Positions 2,991-38,439 of a stretch of DNA of 54,141 nt are shown piece by piece. The stretch spans positions 1 through 54,141 of the forward strand of contig CANRNG010000004.1 in the NCBI GenBank assembly GCA_947631935.1, read 5' to 3'. Source of the DNA: an uncultured Erysipelothrix sp. (GTDB lineage Bacteria > Bacillota_I > Bacilli_A > Erysipelotrichales > Erysipelotrichaceae). The notes beneath the pieces were generated by a model that was given only the letters and a program-made list of their open reading frames with translations, had not been told where the DNA came from and did no database searches. Each line of letters begins with the position of its first letter. Position 1 is the stretch's first letter. The position numbers were made by a program, and so were the translations under genes.

Positions 2991-4412
<1,422 letters not shown>

Positions 4413-8982: not shown

Positions 8983-10056
8983 TTATTCATAAATTGAAAT
9001 ACTGGGTAGGTTGATCCCCAAATCATCCTTAAGTCGATCTCTAAAACTGAGATATAAATCTTGATACATATCCAATTGATTGGAAGTCTTATAATAAGAC
9101 ATGGCTTTGGCGAAGGATGCTTCAGAGTAAGGATCAATACTAAAGAGAATATCGATTACTTGCTTCATATTCGGGATGATGGTTGTATTGTTTTTGTGGA
9201 TTTCCAAATACGCATCCAATATTTCTTGTACCATCGCATCATTTTGAGTTTGATAATTGTGAATCCACGGATAGGATTCTTCTTCCAAAAAGCCCCCAGT
9301 ATAGATTTCAATAATTTCGTCGACAACAGGTTCGGTGTAATTTTTTTCAAGATATATTTCATGAAGCCTTTTCAAATCACTCTTGAACTCGTAATTCAAC
9401 TTATAGTTTCCATTTTGAAGGAGTACTGGATTTTCAATCCCTTGTTCAGACAACAATTTTCTGAGTTGATATACCAAGGTATAAAACAAAGTAAGTGCAC
9501 GGTCATAGTATTTATCCGGATATAGTACTTCAACCAAAGTGTCTTTTGAAATAAAATCATTGTGATTGATCCAAAGATAAATAAAGAGTTCCTTTACTTT
9601 AGCGGTACGCCATCTAACCGGCGTATCGTTTTCATCATACAAAAAGAAATGCCTGAAACTTTTAATGTGAATCGATCTTGTGGTTGGTTTGGGCTTGGCC
9701 AAAACGTCTTCAAGACGGGTCATTGTTTTTTGAAGACGACGCTTGGTAACGGGTTTTAATAAATAGTCAATGGCATTGATATCAAAGGCCCCTAACGCAT
9801 ATTCAGCATAAGCAGTCACAAAAACAATTTCTAAACATGGATTGATGTCCAAGTAGAGATTTCCCATTTCCAATCCATTATGTGGATTCATTTCAACATC
9901 CAAGAAGATAATATCGGGATTTAAATTTTTGATGTCATTTAAAGCAACATATGGATCAGTATATGTTCCAATCACTTCAATGTTTGGATAGTCATTCAAT
10001 AAATTATTGAGTGCTGTGATGGCATTAATTTCGTCATCGACTATAAATGCTTTCAT
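8983..10056 (-). CDS. response regulator with winged-helix and SARP/BTAD-like output
   Basis: A cytoplasmic transcription regulator of 357 residues. The receiver (about 1-120) has the acidic pocket VDDE, phospho-acceptor Asp53 in FLDVEM and Lys in LLKPV. A winged helix resembling trans_reg_C (about 130-220; WRTAKVKELFIYLWINH) and a helical bacterial transcriptional activation domain (about 225-350) follow. It overlaps the kinase gene by 4 bp, so the two are co-translated. The neighbouring divergent adhesin gene is a plausible target, by position only. Similar regulators in Bacillota (SapR-like) support the call. Confidence 0.85.
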   Translation of the reverse strand: MKAFIVDDEINAITALNNLLNDYPNIEVIGTYTDPYVALNDIKNLNPDIIFLDVEMNPHNGLEMGNLYLDINPCLEIVFVTAYAEYALGAFDINAIDYLLKPVTKRRLQKTMTRLEDVLAKPKPTTRSIHIKSFRHFFLYDENDTPVRWRTAKVKELFIYLWINHNDFISKDTLVEVLYPDKYYDRALTLFYTLVYQLRKLLSEQGIENPVLLQNGNYKLNYEFKSDLKRLHEIYLEKNYTEPVVDEIIEIYTGGFLEEESYPWIHNYQTQNDAMVQEILDAYLEIHKNNTTIIPNMKQVIDILFSIDPYSEASFAKAMSYYKTSNQLDMYQDLYLSFRDRLKDDLGINLPSISIYE

Positions 10057-13055
10057 GTTTGTGCCCCCTTTTTAAGTCTAATGGTTGTTTTAGTTCCTTT
10101 GTTGATTTCACTTTGAATGTCAATTTCAGCATGGGGTACCTCTTTTATTGCCTGCAAGACGGTAGCCAATCCCACGCGATCGGTTTTTAAATTCATGATT
10201 TCTTCGAGTTTTGATTTTTCAATACCAACCCCATCATCTTCGACCACAATCTTAACTTTATCCCCTTCATCAATGACTGAGAGATAAACATTTAAGGATT
10301 GACTATTTTCTCTAAAAGAATGCTTCATGGAGTTTTCGACAATGGTTTGAATGGTTAGTGGCGGAATTAATGCCTCTACGTCTTCATTAATATCTAAGTG
10401 AATATTCAAACGTTGTTTATATCTAAAGTTTTCAATTTCTAAGTAAGAAATCACCAATTCAATTTCATCAAATAAATCCACCAATGCTTTATCTTGGTAT
10501 ACATCCAGTTTAGCACGAAGATACACAGAAAGGTTAACGAGGGTTTGTTTGGAAAGGTCGTTATCGTATCCAATTTCCCCAATGACGTTATTGATGGTGT
10601 TATAGAGGAAATGAGGTGATATTCTAGAGTGAAGTAGGCTTAAGGTTTCACTTCTACTCTTCTTAATCGCTGATTTTGATTGTAATAGAAAGTCAACTTT
10701 TGCAATTAATTCATCGGCTTTAAAGGGTCTGTGTATATAACCATTAATACCGACATCTTGCATCGTTTGTAAGTTTTCTGAAGTAGTGGGTGTTCCCAAT
10801 AATAAGATTGGCATTTCATACATCTCGTAACGTTTTCGAATTGCTTCAGCAAAAGTCATAAAAGACACCAAATCGGTTGACCAGTCTAGAATAATCATTT
10901 CGTATTGCGTTTCGTTGAACTTCATTTGAAGGTTGCTGATATCCTTAAGCACATCAACATTAAAATTATTTTGTTCAAGGATTGAAATGACTTTATAAGT
11001 CTCAAAGTTATAGCTTTTGATCAGTAAAACATTCTTAAAATTCGGATTGCGAACATAGCGTCTGGGTGTGATCCCTGTTTTCATTTCTGAATGTGTTTTG
11101 GTGATGGGGAACGTGAGGGTAAAGGTTGTCCCAACGTTTAAGGTTGATTCGACACTTAAGACACCCTCTTCGAGTTCAGTAAACTGCTTTGTAACAGAAA
11201 GCCCCAAACCGTATTTAGTAGCATCCGGATGGATTTGATAGAGTGGTTGGAAAATTTTGGTTAGATGTGATGCACCAATGCCAACACCGGTATCTGAAAT
11301 TGATAAAGTAATTTTATTGAAAGCAACATGGCCCGTGATCTTGATGACACCCTTGTCAGTGTTTTCGATGGCATTTTCTATTAAGTTATTGAAAATATAA
11401 TAGAAATGATAATAGGCCCCTTGAAGCGGCGGGAAGTGATCGCCAACCATGTTTTTAATTTCGACATTGGGTTTTAATTTGATTTCAAAAGATAGGTCTT
11501 TTAAGACTTCGTGTACTACTTCATAAATCAAAAGTAATGAGGCCTCTTTGGTTTCAAAGTTTCCAGCAGCACCAGTAGAGTATCTTAACTGATCCAATAG
11601 ATTCATGGTTCGGGTTGTTTCATCATGGATGAAAGCCATGGTTCTTTGTTCTTCAACCTTGAGTACGGATGACGGATTTTGAATCAATGAGACATTTAAG
11701 TCGTGAATTTTCTGGATAGAAGGTGCTACTTTAGCTGTTAATTTATCAACAAACCGACTTCTTTGATTATAGGAATCAATCAAATCTTTACCCAGTTCTA
11801 CAATCTTGATATTCTTACTTCGATTAAGTGATAAAAGATACATTGAACCAGAAGCAATAGAAACAGAAGCAGCGATAAGGGGTAGTTTATGCAGGTCAAT
11901 GGGTGTAAATATTCTTAGAATGTTAAAAGTGAAGTAAATCGATAAATTTACCGCGAAGAAAACAATAGAAAGCCATTGATATTTACTATTAATCTTGGAA
12001 TTTACCATTATAAGGAAGCTATATAAAATTGATGATAAGAAGGCAAGCAAATAAAATGGTGCCAGTAAAAGATATACAACAGGTAGTTTTATAAATATTA
12101 ATATAAAGAAAAGACTGATGAATAAGGTGCCCAATATATATTTTATCTTTTTACTCTTGAATATATATCCGATTGCTTGTGCGGTAAAGAGTAGTAGAAA
12201 TGCAGCGGTTAGTGTAAGGGAGAGTCCTTGGATTATGGACCTTTGCGTAAAGGTGTAATCCCATAGATATGCCAATACTTGTTCGTCAACGGTGGATATA
12301 TATATTACGAAAGATAAGCTAAGTATACCGAAATAAAGGGATGCTTTATCTTTTCTATCAATGATAAATAACAAAATAAAATAAAGTGAAAGAATGAGTA
12401 AGAATGACAAAGCGAACACAGAAATAGCCATGCTGAGAAGATGGCTTCGGATCATCGTATCAGCATATCCTACCTCTATCGCAGTTACAATTCCTTGCAA
12501 CCCTTGGGATGTTTCGGCGGCAGGAATTTGAATCACCAATTCAATGCGATTATTTTTAGCTTCAAAAGGGATGAGTGCATAGCGACTGCCCGTAATTACT
12601 TGCGAAGCATCTTCAGATACTTTTCCTTCTTCATGTAATAATTGACCATTCACAAACAACTTAAAAGCAGGGCGAATTGTTTTGGTTTTGATGGCGTAGG
12701 TATTGCTGTTGGGGAAATCAATAATTAAGCGATAGGTTCCCTGAGTATGTGACATTTGATTGGATGTGAAAATCATTGAGGGTAAATGCACATAGGTCTT
12801 AGAAGCGGCATAGTCATCAAAAGAAGATACACTGGGGTCAATGAGCGCATCTGGATAAAACTCCCATTTCCCATTGAGCCTTGTGATTTCATCATTTTCC
12901 AATGTACTGAGATTAAGGATACCTTGAGTTGCTAAGGTATCTGTTTTATTATGTCGGTTATTGAAAAAATACAAGTAATAGGTAGCACCTGCATACATCG
13001 AAATCAATACAAAGATAACAATTATCTTTTCTTTTTTCATTTTTCTAAATTTCAT
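10053..13055 (-). CDS. 7TMR-DISM hybrid sensor histidine kinase
   Basis: A membrane sensor of 1000 residues. It has an N-terminal membrane segment, a beta-rich extracellular jelly-roll-like domain (about 45-195; 7TMR-DISM extracellular type), and a seven-helix membrane block (about 205-410). Next come a coiled region, a first HATPase (SDTGVGIG, YGLGLSV), and a receiver (MIILDWST, PILLLGTP). A LytS-type kinase (SPHFLYNTINNV) and a second HATPase (VENSMKHSF, EDDGVGI) end the protein. The region where a HisKA box should precede the first HATPase reads TAKVAPSIQKI and lacks the usual His, so phosphorylation probably uses the second module. The ligand is unknown; such exodomains often bind carbohydrates. 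Confidence 0.88.
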   Translation of the reverse strand: MKFRKMKKEKIIVIFVLISMYAGATYYLYFFNNRHNKTDTLATQGILNLSTLENDEITRLNGKWEFYPDALIDPSVSSFDDYAASKTYVHLPSMIFTSNQMSHTQGTYRLIIDFPNSNTYAIKTKTIRPAFKLFVNGQLLHEEGKVSEDASQVITGSRYALIPFEAKNNRIELVIQIPAAETSQGLQGIVTAIEVGYADTMIRSHLLSMAISVFALSFLLILSLYFILLFIIDRKDKASLYFGILSLSFVIYISTVDEQVLAYLWDYTFTQRSIIQGLSLTLTAAFLLLFTAQAIGYIFKSKKIKYILGTLFISLFFILIFIKLPVVYLLLAPFYLLAFLSSILYSFLIMVNSKINSKYQWLSIVFFAVNLSIYFTFNILRIFTPIDLHKLPLIAASVSIASGSMYLLSLNRSKNIKIVELGKDLIDSYNQRSRFVDKLTAKVAPSIQKIHDLNVSLIQNPSSVLKVEEQRTMAFIHDETTRTMNLLDQLRYSTGAAGNFETKEASLLLIYEVVHEVLKDLSFEIKLKPNVEIKNMVGDHFPPLQGAYYHFYYIFNNLIENAIENTDKGVIKITGHVAFNKITLSISDTGVGIGASHLTKIFQPLYQIHPDATKYGLGLSVTKQFTELEEGVLSVESTLNVGTTFTLTFPITKTHSEMKTGITPRRYVRNPNFKNVLLIKSYNFETYKVISILEQNNFNVDVLKDISNLQMKFNETQYEMIILDWSTDLVSFMTFAEAIRKRYEMYEMPILLLGTPTTSENLQTMQDVGINGYIHRPFKADELIAKVDFLLQSKSAIKKSRSETLSLLHSRISPHFLYNTINNVIGEIGYDNDLSKQTLVNLSVYLRAKLDVYQDKALVDLFDEIELVISYLEIENFRYKQRLNIHLDINEDVEALIPPLTIQTIVENSMKHSFRENSQSLNVYLSVIDEGDKVKIVVEDDGVGIEKSKLEEIMNLKTDRVGLATVLQAIKEVPHAEIDIQSEINKGTKTTIRLKKGAQT

Positions 13056-33227: not shown

Positions 33228-33251
33228 AAGCTGCACGAATGCAGCTTTTTT
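33226..33251. terminator. terminator between alr and the convergent gene
   Basis: AAAAGCTGC, ACGAAT, GCAGCTTTTTT. Confidence 0.9.
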
Positions 33252-33999
33252 AGTGATGATGTGCTTTCTTAGATGAAAGCGGACTGGTTTTATTATAGTC
33301 ATTTAAATACGGATAAATAAAGGTATCGTTTAATAATATCGCTTGGTAATAGTAGCGATGGAATGGGTTCGTTAAAGAACGAATGATACGATCAATGCGG
33401 TGGTTACATTCATCTAAGATCGCATAATGAATGTCTTTGTTTTCAAAATCAAAGGTTAATTGCGAATAGAGGTGTAAGAATGTTTGGATAGCAACCAACT
33501 GAGGTCTTTCTTCATGAATGGCATCAAAATATTCAAATAAGTTATCGATGCTTTGACTGAAGACAGGAAGCCTGTTTTCTGTGTTATAGTTCTGAATACG
33601 CAAGATGTGTCGGGTTAAATCATTGAGTATCGTGTGATAACAAATGATTTGGTCCAAATTCGATGCGAAATAGCTATTATCTTGGTCGAGTTCGCATTGG
33701 ATATTGAAATCAAGACTACAGGTAAGTTCATACTTATCTTCAAGGGCCATACTCAACATGAGTGCAGCTGCATAGGGGCATTTGAATGGGTCATACTCTG
33801 AAATGCCATCTTTGGTGATGGAGAGATAGACAACACTGTGGTCAACATTGAATCTAAGTTGAACTAAGAAATAGTAGTGATCATAGACCAAAGCTTTAAC
33901 GCTATAACAAGATTCATCTAAAACTTTGATGCGATTTTCGTTGAGTATTTGAACTGCGTTTTCTAAAACTTCTGGTTCAAACAAATATTTTAAATCCAT
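33250..33999 (-). CDS. uncharacterised protein
   Basis: A soluble protein of 249 residues, not recognised. It has an N-terminal beta-rich part (YSVKALVYDHYYFLVQLRF) followed by KCPYAAALMLSMALED, which faintly recalls the CxH-A-A-L end of a SWIM zinc finger but lacks the other ligands. The rest is helical and acidic, ending in a KKAHHH tail. AGGAGG precedes the start. It stands alone, convergent with alr and divergent from the RAYT-like gene. Confidence 0.7.
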   Translation of the reverse strand: MDLKYLFEPEVLENAVQILNENRIKVLDESCYSVKALVYDHYYFLVQLRFNVDHSVVYLSITKDGISEYDPFKCPYAAALMLSMALEDKYELTCSLDFNIQCELDQDNSYFASNLDQIICYHTILNDLTRHILRIQNYNTENRLPVFSQSIDNLFEYFDAIHEERPQLVAIQTFLHLYSQLTFDFENKDIHYAILDECNHRIDRIIRSLTNPFHRYYYQAILLNDTFIYPYLNDYNKTSPLSSKKAHHH

Positions 34000-34116
34000 G
34001 TCGTTGACCTCCTTTGCATCTAAATAATATTCTAAGGTCTTGGCTTTTTCAATGAAAGTGCATATTGCTTTGGGGACAGATATTGCCCATGTTAAGATAA
34101 TTTTAAGGTGATAAGG

Positions 34117-34788
34117 ATGGCAAGACAGCCCAGAAAATTACAGAAGACCTCTGTTTTCTCAATTAAACAGAAAACAGAAGTCCCAATCTTTAGAAATCAA
34201 GCAGATCGTAAATTCTTTATGGAACTTTTAGAAAAGAATAAAGATAAGTTTGGTTATGACATTTATGGCTATTGTTTATTGGATCCAGATGCTTTTTGGA
34301 TTGTTTTAAATTGCAACAATCGAAGTATTGCTTCAATCATGCAAGCCATTTCTATTTCGTATGCTTTATATCGTGATGATGTTGATAATTTATTTTCCAG
34401 ACGCTATATCAGTGAACCCATTTATGACTTAAAAACACTTGAAAAAACGATGGAAGCCATGATTTCAGATCCACGCTATGAAACCTGTCACTATTGTTTC
34501 TATGATCCAACAATGAATCTTCCTTTACCTTTTATTTCTAAGGTGAATGAAGGTATAGATATTCAAACCAAGTATTTAAAGAAAACCACCACTTCAGAAA
34601 TGGAAGCCTATATTAAGGACTATGTATTAGAGACTTATGAAACGTTACATATGTTGGAGGATTTAAACGTGCGCAATGCAGTCATCCGCCATGTGTATGC
34701 GAATCTTAATGTAACGCAGAAACAGTTATCTCAGTATTTTGAGATTGGAAATTCAGCCATTTCTAAAATTGTCAGTAATTTGATTTGA
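34117..34788 (+). CDS. REP-associated (IS200-like) transposase relative lacking the HUH motif
   Basis: A protein of 223 residues aligning by eye with RAYT/TnpA_REP proteins: VPIFRNQADRKFFMELLEKN, GYDIYGYCLL, NRSIASIMQAISISYALY, LFSRRYISEPI. In RAYTs the YCLM segment is followed by PNHVHLL (HUH metal ligands); here it reads DPDAFWIVL, so the ligands are gone and the enzyme should be inactive. The C terminus (VTQKQLSQYFEIGNSAISKI) is a helix-turn-helix. ATG 34117 has AAGGTG at good spacing. The frame is intact, suggesting a co-opted DNA- or RNA-binding role. Confidence 0.75.
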   Translation: MARQPRKLQKTSVFSIKQKTEVPIFRNQADRKFFMELLEKNKDKFGYDIYGYCLLDPDAFWIVLNCNNRSIASIMQAISISYALYRDDVDNLFSRRYISEPIYDLKTLEKTMEAMISDPRYETCHYCFYDPTMNLPLPFISKVNEGIDIQTKYLKKTTTSEMEAYIKDYVLETYETLHMLEDLNVRNAVIRHVYANLNVTQKQLSQYFEIGNSAISKIVSNLI

Positions 34789-36734
<1,946 letters not shown>

Positions 36735-36740
36735 TATCAA

Positions 36741-36768
36741 GGCTCACCTAACGCGTGAGCTTTTTTTA
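36741..36768 (+). terminator. intrinsic terminator
   Basis: GCTCAC, CTAACGC, GTGAGC followed by T7. Confidence 0.88.
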
Positions 36769-36833
36769 TTTGTGAGCATTCTAATGGCATTCAACATCTG
36801 TCCCCTTTATAATGGATTTAAGAGGTGACAAAT

Positions 36834-37799
36834 GTGGAATTAAATATTATGGCAACCCAACAATCTATTACTTTAGATCCAAATGTGATATGGGATAGTG
36901 TCATTGTGGGTGGGGGACCTGCTGGATACAATGCGGCCCTTTATATGTACCGCAAAGGTTTAAGACCCTTACTCATTATGAAAGATCGCGGCGGTCAAGT
37001 GGCCATCACCAATGCGGTTGAGAATTACTTGGGCTTTGAATCGATACATGGGACAGACATGACTGAGAAGTTTCATGCGCATGTCTCAGGATTTGAGATT
37101 GATATTCTAGAAAATCGTAAAGTAGAAAACATTGAGAAAAAGGATGGATACTTTCAGCTAACCCTGGATATGAAGGAAATCTTAAAATCCAAAACAATCA
37201 TTATCGCAACCGGTGGGACCCATCGTAAATTGGGTATTCCAGGTGAACTTGAATTTGAGGGCAAGGGTAATTCATACTGTGCCATATGTGATGCAGCCTT
37301 CTTTAAAGATAAAGATGTTGTGGTTGTGGGTGGGGGTGATGCTGCTGTTGAAGCTGCTCTTGACTTATCCAATTGGGCAACCCATGTACACTTAGTCCAT
37401 CGCTCAACCTTTAGAGCAGAAAAGATCTTGTTGGACCGGATGATGGATAGACCCAATATAACCTATGAACTGGGCTCAACACTCCAAGAAATAAAAGGAT
37501 CTGATAAGGTAACATCGGTCTTAATCAAACACGACGATACGATTGTTGAACGGGAAGTTCAAGGGGTATTTATTGAAATTGGGCAAGATCCAAATAGTGA
37601 TTTGGTCAAGGATTTGGTTGTGCTGGATGACAATCGATACATCAAAGTCGATAAATATGGATCAACCAGTTTGGAAGGCTTATATGCAGCAGGAGATGTC
37701 ACAGACAACCCCTATAAACAAATTATTACGGCAACAGCCGAAGGTGCGATTGCGGCCTTAAGTGCGTCAAACTATATTATGAAGATGGAGGAAAAATAA
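36834..37799 (+). CDS. thioredoxin reductase-like flavoprotein (AhpF C-terminal type)
   Basis: A FAD/NAD(P)H disulfide reductase of 321 residues. FAD-binding VIVGGGPAGYNAALYM, redox pair Cys149-Cys152 in YCAICDAAFF, nucleotide-binding VVVGGGDAAVEAALDL and GLYAAGDVTDNPYKQI are all present. GTG 36834, six bases after AGAGGTG, is chosen. The gene is followed 1 bp later by a double-thioredoxin-fold protein, so the pair together equals the two halves of AhpF. It may reduce that partner rather than thioredoxin. Confidence 0.92.
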   Translation: MELNIMATQQSITLDPNVIWDSVIVGGGPAGYNAALYMYRKGLRPLLIMKDRGGQVAITNAVENYLGFESIHGTDMTEKFHAHVSGFEIDILENRKVENIEKKDGYFQLTLDMKEILKSKTIIIATGGTHRKLGIPGELEFEGKGNSYCAICDAAFFKDKDVVVVGGGDAAVEAALDLSNWATHVHLVHRSTFRAEKILLDRMMDRPNITYELGSTLQEIKGSDKVTSVLIKHDDTIVEREVQGVFIEIGQDPNSDLVKDLVVLDDNRYIKVDKYGSTSLEGLYAAGDVTDNPYKQIITATAEGAIAALSASNYIMKMEEK

Positions 37800-37800
37800 T

Positions 37801-38439
37801 ATGAGTCAATTTTTAAATGAAGATGTTAGAAAAATGTTGGGGGATATTCTAAAAGATATGGTGGATGATGTCTATGTGAAACTGTTTGTGGCATCTTTGA
37901 CATGCGATACCTGTCAAGAAACACACCAACTCTTAAGTGAAATGTCTACACTCAACGATAAGATTCATTATGAACTAATTGAAGATATCGAAAAAGGAGC
38001 CCAATATGGTGTGCGTTTATCTCCTACAATCGTTGTCTTAGATAAGAATCAAGAAGATAAAGGGGTTAGATTCAACGGTATCCCAGCGGGACATGAAATC
38101 AATTCTTTACTCGCAGCCTTGGTGGATATGTCAGGAAAACCCTTAGACTTAGATGAAGAAACAGTGGCAACAATTAAAGCCATTGATACTGAAACCAATA
38201 TTAAAGTGTTTGTGACATTATCTTGTCCACACTGCCCAGGTGCAGTGACTAAGGCCCATCGTATTGCGATGTTGAACCCCTATGTTAAAGCAGAAATGAT
38301 TGAAGCCCAAACATTCCATAAGGAATCAGCCAAATACAATGTTTCATCGGTTCCAAAGATTGTGATCAATGAAACCCATGATTTTGTGGGTAACCAACCC
38401 ATGTCTGTCTTCTTGGAAACCATTCAAAAAGCAGCATAA
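37801..38439 (+). CDS. double-thioredoxin-fold protein (AhpF N-terminal / glutaredoxin-like PDO type)
   Basis: A protein of 212 residues with two thioredoxin folds. Fold one has Cys35 and Cys38 (TCDTCQET); fold two has Cys142 and Cys145 (SCPHCPGAV) and cis-Pro in VSSVPKIVIN. In AhpF the N-terminal domain keeps a CxxC only in the second fold; here both folds keep one, as in archaeal PDO proteins. It is coupled to the reductase gene and probably carries electrons to a peroxidase encoded elsewhere. Confidence 0.88.
   Translation: MSQFLNEDVRKMLGDILKDMVDDVYVKLFVASLTCDTCQETHQLLSEMSTLNDKIHYELIEDIEKGAQYGVRLSPTIVVLDKNQEDKGVRFNGIPAGHEINSLLAALVDMSGKPLDLDEETVATIKAIDTETNIKVFVTLSCPHCPGAVTKAHRIAMLNPYVKAEMIEAQTFHKESAKYNVSSVPKIVINETHDFVGNQPMSVFLETIQKAA

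Follow-up and report, generated by a model that had tools for sequence, protein, structure and literature searches.

The locus

The window, by which we mean the whole 54,141-nucleotide stretch analysed, carries a small transposase-derived gene followed on the same strand by a glucosidase gene and by an operon of thioredoxin-reductase-like (TrxR) and protein disulfide oxidoreductase (PDO) genes. Its features are as follows.

34072-34087, forward strand: left repeat GGGGACAGATATTGCC, a degenerate TIR-like operator candidate (3 mismatches to GGGGACANNNCTTGAA, p 0.013)
34117-34788, forward strand: gene for an HUH-less RAYT/TIRYT-derived protein of 223 aa, an intact 223-codon frame
34288-34296, forward strand: codons of D58-A59-F60, at the HUH motif position (register with intact enzymes)
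34456-34458, forward strand: codon of A114, at the catalytic Tyr position (register with intact enzymes)
34495-34497, forward strand: codon of Cys127, a candidate sensing thiol, judged from residue counts in dead versus intact proteins
34705-34782, forward strand: C-terminal helix-turn-helix (HTH), approximate limits (sub-threshold Pfam, residues 189-222; alignment with intact HTH ends)
35307-36734, forward strand: GH1 6-phospho-beta-glucosidase gene, between the candidate regulator and the redox operon
36739-36763, forward strand: terminator-like hairpin after the GH1 gene
36784-36813, forward strand: promoter-like ATGGCA-18-TATAAT before the TrxR-like gene
36790-36805, reverse strand: right repeat GGGGACAGATGTTGAA, in the promoter spacer (1 mismatch)
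36834-37799, forward strand: TrxR-like gene (TrxR/AhpF C-terminal type), likely start GTG 36834, longest frame from 36825
37801-38439, forward strand: PDO gene (TIGR02187, 233.3 bits, cut-off 185)

An in-frame GTG upstream would extend the 34117-34788 frame to 34108. A sequence-only reading of this DNA had proposed that the frame encodes a RAYT-like protein which has lost its HUH motif yet stays open, and is a candidate for domestication. The frame is indeed uninterrupted, and the domestication guess is now well supported by HUH-less orthologues, purifying selection and synteny in three families; the redox operon downstream had not been seen. A divergent gene of 249 aa at 33250-33999 (reverse strand), with no significant match in Pfam or NCBIfam, adjoins the dead transposase gene elsewhere in L045 (G009) only.

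Descent from Y1 transposases

The window protein is a homologue of TIR-associated Y1 (RAYT-type) transposases whose catalytic residues are intact. An HMM built from 8 intact Clostridia enzymes only matches it at E 4.9e-16 (58.7 bits). Its predicted structure is closest by Z to TnpA_REP 4er8 (Z 12.7, rmsd 3.6, 125 residues), with IS200 transposases heading the Foldseek list; the model is of moderate quality (mean pLDDT 77, pTM 0.54), and residues 127-153, which score below 50, are unreliable. Both results bear out the RAYT likeness that had been suggested from sequence. Pfam did not call Y1_Tnp in the window protein, and gave sub-threshold Y1_Tnp matches in three of the first five relatives examined; a PDB search by sequence led nowhere, and a single-sequence scan of genome contigs confirmed nothing. 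The C-terminal HTH, also part of the original proposal, is supported by sub-threshold Pfam matches and by its alignment with the HTH in which intact enzymes end. By the published classification, most TIRYT proteins, which have HTH ends, fall in subclass 2.1 (Quentin 2018, PMC6006769), and the features of the RAYT/TIRYT lineage are all present here: homology, the Y1 fold, a subclass 2.1 HTH and flanking inverted repeats with a GGGGWSAS core.

In a gap-free register running from the conserved YC, DPDAFWI begins at residue 56, at the HUH position of the intact enzymes, and both His are replaced, the first by D58 and the second by F60, just as had been claimed. The catalytic Tyr is replaced by A114 and the Asn ligand by D118, two further losses on which the sequence-only reading was silent. 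Thus both features of an active RAYT/TIRYT, the HUH motif and a Tyr with its Asn/NP context, are missing from the window protein.

The window's genome gave zero Y1_Tnp matches at E up to 10, and a search there for an active paralogue found none. Intact relatives of the subgroup were also sought in the host family: the intact-enzyme HMM matched 18 of 272 genomes (E up to 1e-10), all of them dead-gene genomes, at a threshold that misses three of the 21 dead-gene genomes (G291, G295 and G296).

Dead relatives in three families

A search of the 272 family genomes with profile A1 gave matches in 30, of which 21 are full-length and nine weak and partial. Each genome has one match, save that G239 has two, which overlap within a single frame, and G234 has a second, weak one. 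A class-wide sample of 395 genomes added full-length relatives in two further families, f9 and f15, three in each, and searches within these families (positive in 3/8 f9 genomes and 6/13 f15 genomes) added three more, from f15. Full-length HUH-less relatives therefore number 30, mostly from draft assemblies, in three families of the class (21 in the host family, 3 in f9, 6 in f15). Loci L045-L054 overlap the G genomes, their contigs being partly or wholly identical and seven of them matching in length, and counts are taken from the G set only.

The second His and the Tyr are absent from all 30 full-length relatives, the Asn from 29 and the first His from 21. No orthologue with HUH was found, the second His being gone in 21/21 proteins of the host family and in 9/9 of the other two. 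All four catalytic residues are kept in 11/11 scored intact enzymes. These belong to a set of 12 drawn from the 16 non-family loci L055-L070 (L059, L065, L066 and L068 omitted); L067 was skipped in the residue scoring, and L056 and L060 are without the C-terminal part. The omitted locus L068 encodes, at 10001-10471, a Bacillota RAYT that keeps an HxH motif and has, by eye, a Ser at the Tyr position, which is perhaps a half-dead intermediate or a partly dead enzyme.

In an unrooted tree, in which long branches are flagged, the 30 dead proteins make up one side of a branch with support 100/99, apart from the 12 intact enzymes and two f19 rows. The f19 genomes G456 and G587 carry a different HUH-less RAYT relative (YTLLDSAFSFVIH; L192:4330-5055 and, on the reverse strand, L193), which adjoins a lipoprotein-like gene, not TrxR, and has GGGACA repeats upstream. 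It is perhaps the product of a second, separate domestication.

Substitution rates were compared between pairs of relatives. In the four pairs with dS < 1.4, dN/dS ranges from 0.04 to 0.14 (G293/G297, 0.07 at dS 0.36; G046/G234, 0.14 at dS 0.76; G048/G305, 0.08 at dS 1.18; G291/G295, 0.04 at dS 1.36), dS being more saturated in the remaining pairs. These values indicate purifying selection on the gene in the pairs measured.

A conserved redox operon downstream

All 30 relatives have a TrxR-like gene, a PDO gene or both downstream on the same strand, a synteny kept across the three families. Among the 11 loci first compared, the TrxR-like gene lies downstream on the same strand in 11/11, followed by PDO in ten according to an ORF script; in L047 PDO is masked by an opposite-strand ORF and was found by HMM in G046, whose contig is the same one judging by its length. 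TrxR is directly next to the dead transposase gene in 18/21 host-family loci and follows it in 3/3 f9 and 6/6 f15 loci. In G293 and G297 TrxR is absent and PDO directly follows. Of the nine f9/f15 loci, the five tested for PDO all exceed its cut-off, a sixth (G318) seems from its sequence to have the gene, and in the remaining three the retrieved flank is too short to reach it.

The window is the one locus in which the GH1 gene intervenes between candidate regulator and redox operon; it is absent there in the other 29 genomes, and it came in without parting the right repeat from the TrxR promoter. The right copy comes after the terminator-like hairpin at the end of the GH1 gene, which makes TrxR-PDO look like a separate transcription unit.

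Open frames, low dN/dS and synteny across three families contradict any degradation of the locus in relatives, and selection and synteny together lead us to reject a non-functional relic. That we are dealing with a decaying transposase remnant, open by chance, is barely credible, given a full-length gene in 30 genomes of three families with its synteny kept, and the low dN/dS of the least saturated pairs. What speaks for decay is that the copies of the host genus, in G000 and G009, have diverged more rapidly than any others (identity 53%; dN/dS 0.17, with dS saturated), and that G159 has a partial match ridden with stops.

PDO exceeds the TIGR02187 cut-off in 23 of the 272 family genomes, and 21 of the 23 are exactly the 21 dead-gene genomes. 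The remaining two, G021 and G241, have a CsoR-type repressor gene (PF02583) in the same operon.

L102:4804-5058, reverse strand: CsoR-type repressor gene, 69.3 bits
L101:1951-2229, forward strand: CsoR-type repressor gene, 65.1 bits

This looks like one regulator standing in place of another.

Inverted repeats and promoters

The sequence-only reading noticed no REP-like palindromes near the gene. This does not hold: comparison of flanks reveals an inverted repeat pair, GGGGACANNNCTTGAA, around the dead transposase gene, with window copies at 34072-34087 (forward) and 36790-36805 (reverse). The left window copy overlaps a weak promoter-like match, GGGACA-17-GATAAT, before the gene. Both window copies have GGGGACAGAT[A/G]TTG in common, as if the two had changed together. 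In 20/21 family loci both copies are present with <=3 mismatches, each with p <= 0.023, where p derives from 300 resamples of the flank that preserve first-order transitions, not exact dinucleotide counts. The exception is G239, which together with G000 and G009 has weak or missing repeat copies.

In 18/21 family loci the right copy fills the exact 17 bp between a -35 TTGNNA and a TATAAT or TATACT; the other three are the window (ATGGCA, 18 bp, TATAAT), G009 (weak -35) and G239 (neither box). In f15 the right copy is an exact match to the promoter pattern in 6/6 loci, the pattern having been drawn up after three of these, and no left copy was seen at the f15 loci; G457, of the same genus as f15 members and without the dead gene, lacks the site. 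All 3 f9 loci have a left copy with <=2 mismatches, and the right copy comes after the TATAAT in G360 and G368 and was not seen in G318. Between dead transposase and TrxR, G368 has four operator-like repeats in a row (L188:6247-6802), which suggests an amplified end or a stronger operator.

Several intact Clostridia elements are flanked by repeats that combine a GGGGAC block with a short hairpin and, further in, a block resembling GGGACACATCTT; the intact element of L063 has the inner block GGGGACACTTCTTGAGTT ~135 bp before its gene. Ends of the GGGGAC type were not seen at some intact loci. The published TIRYT consensus of terminal repeats is GGGGWSAS (Di Nocera 2013, PMC3733652). The putative operators are most simply read as old transposon ends.

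If the protein regulates this operon, repression is the probable direction of control. An unlikely alternative keeps the same genes and the same sites and has the protein act as an activator, or in both directions, recruiting RNA polymerase in its oxidised or persulfidated state. Activators that bind the promoter spacer do exist, those of the MerR type, and offer a precedent, and the position of our repeat relative to the promoter varies between families, which would also suit an activator. However, MerR-type spacers are longer than normal, and the repeat here fills a normal 17-bp spacer in 18/21 loci, which favours blocking.

We see hardly any prospect that the protein still handles hairpins of single-stranded DNA or RNA and acts post-transcriptionally instead of at promoters. 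Intact relatives do act on hairpin single strands, as described in PMC6006769, and read-through might transcribe the left copy. Against this, the right copy precedes the presumed transcription start in 18/21 loci and so would be outside the TrxR mRNA, and the catalytic residues have been lost to the extent counted above.

Sites elsewhere in the genomes

Searching the 272 family genomes for TTCAAGNNNTGTCCCNNTATAAT yielded 20 sites with <=1 mismatch. All lie in dead-gene genomes, of which 18 out of 21 have at least one, and the 251 family genomes without the dead gene have none. As 18 of the 20 sites are the loci that supplied the pattern, the informative results are the zero elsewhere and two extra exact sites. 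Both are promoter-embedded: one, in G294, stands before an operon of thioredoxin, rhodanese and CoA-disulfide-reductase-rhodanese genes, the other, in G296, before a rhodanese gene. In the main cluster, G037 has rhodanese after PDO, and G293 and G297 have thioredoxin and rhodanese. Thus the same kinds of thiol gene lie under the site whether contiguous with the cluster or not.

Among the 52 listed TTCAAGNNNTGTCCCNNTATAAT matches, the 32 with 2 mismatches, which include some in dead-gene genomes, are treated here as mostly chance; a reversed-pattern control gave 9 matches at up to 2 mismatches. Off-locus one-mismatch matches of a shorter pattern look mostly like chance as well, those read in context (G021 C46, G019 C10, G306 C4/C26, G293 C32 and G046 C21) lying in or across coding frames. 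Four g37 genomes share TGGGACATTTCTTGAA (L115-L118, near 3900-4100) before NUDIX and CoA-disulfide-reductase genes, a doubtful further target because it overlaps the end of another ORF. A similar site with 2 mismatches and a -10-like box, TACAAGATATGTCCC, occurs in a pair of genus g43 genomes that lack the dead gene, at L147 (G054 C38:26222-26244) and L148 (G229 C5:27486-27508).

These searches bear on two further explanations. According to the first, some other transcription factor of the host uses the repeats as its operators, with the dead transposase carried along as a passenger. Binding of the repeats by the dead transposase is our own deduction from sequence, and f15 has the right site without the left, both of which leave room for such a factor. 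Yet the repeats look like the ends that intact elements carry, sites with <=1 mismatch are absent from all 251 family genomes without the gene, and the gene is under purifying selection; we rate the explanation as very improbable.

According to the second, the protein is a non-regulatory member of the thiol pathway, such as a scaffold or a redox partner, and is inherited along with TrxR/PDO. Tight gene linkage alone cannot separate a regulator from a pathway protein, and the conserved Cys described below is also compatible with either. Retention of the HTH, the confinement of sites with <=1 mismatch to genomes with the gene, and the CsoR-type repressor in the two operons without the dead gene all argue against it, and make it improbable.

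A proposed mechanism

Cys127 is a Cys in 29/30 dead proteins and in 1/12 intact enzymes. Cys53, by contrast, is ancestral, being present in 12/12 intact enzymes, and is absent from 7/30 dead proteins, so a Cys53-Cys127 disulfide cannot be a general switch.

We consider it likely that the dead Y1 transposase (TIRYT) is a regulator, most likely a repressor, and that its former ends serve as operators of the TrxR/PDO operon. On this proposal, an element of the form TIR - transposase - TIR would have become fixed upstream of the operon, and would then have lost catalysis while retaining fold, HTH and ends. The protein would bind the repeats through its HTH or its Y1 domain. As the left copy overlaps the promoter region of the gene itself, binding there could bring about autoregulation, while at the right copy, which fills the -35/-10 spacer of the TrxR/PDO promoter, it could repress by steric hindrance; the protein might also bridge both ends in the manner of a transposase. 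Additional operators may, in some genomes, control thioredoxin, rhodanese and CoA-disulfide-reductase genes. Release would probably come about by oxidation or persulfidation of Cys127.

The fuller version of this proposal, in which the dead transposase acts as a repressor that senses persulfide or disulfide via the gained Cys127, its two ends are operators, and a thiol/persulfide regulon grew from additional copies of the end lying in other promoters, seems to us as apt to prove right as wrong. Its weakest step is the relief of repression by a thiol signal, which we put forward tentatively and regard as a possibility somewhat short of an even chance. A thiol or persulfide signal is favoured because the targets handle sulfur and because a CsoR-type repressor is the stand-in.

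Comparison with known systems

The closest comparison is with TIRYT/TnpA_REP subclass 2.1 as described in PMC3733652 and PMC6006769, which is like the window system in its Y1 fold, C-terminal HTH and TIRs with a GGGGWSAS-like core. Those accounts have published TIRYTs retaining HUH and Tyr, whereas the window protein lacks HUH, catalytic Tyr and Asn ligand, is fixed beside a redox operon and has, mostly, one match per family genome. The RAYT/TnpA_REP proteins of REPtrons (PMC8266576; structure 4er8) have a fold related to that of the window protein (Z 12.7). They are termed domesticated transposases there in the sense of active enzymes that move REPs, that is, single-strand endonucleases tied to REP repeats, in contrast to a protein without the catalytic residues.

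The kind of fate that we propose has a parallel in TldR, as here catalytic residues are lost, the frame is under selection and the gene is tied to non-transposon genes. TldR proteins are nuclease-dead TnpB repressors, reportedly described by Wiegand in 2024. By the account in PMC13418256, TnpB gave rise to these repressors, and the likeness lies in an IS200/IS605-related enzyme that has lost catalysis, kept nucleic-acid binding and become tied to host genes. The window protein is not TldR proper, its fold being that of a Y1 transposase and not of TnpB. TldR is an RNA-guided TnpB protein, whereas here it is the HUH transposase itself that is reused, together with ends that presumably act as operators, and it is not known to have a guide RNA. 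The CsoR/CstR repressors probably do a similar job, repression of sulfur and thiol genes, and CstR, of the CsoR-type family, is described as sensing reactive sulfur species (PMC10318464); that protein family is unrelated, and Pfam gave no match to PF02583, the CsoR/CstR domain, in the window protein.

Transposon-derived regulators are thus known, and an HUH transposase as the source, with its ends as operators, is something we have not seen in print. We found no report of an HUH transposase turned transcription factor in the literature searched, most subscription papers lying outside its scope, and by term count the main text of a review of recruited mobile elements (PMC8987985) makes no mention of RAYT. 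By its authors' account, the 2018 census started from 924 Y1 sequences and retained 722, excluding those that lacked the motifs as probably non-functional (PMC6006769), so that a class of regulators among HUH-less relatives may have been overlooked.

Operator, promoter layout, targets and candidate sensing cysteine can all be named, which makes the idea directly testable. If it is true, one small locus, repeated across genomes, would display the route from mobile element to regulator with its stages visible: catalysis lost, ends turned into operators, and further copies into a regulon. It would also mean that a family of transcription factors arose from the HUH transposase itself and takes the place of CsoR-type regulators in at least three bacterial families.
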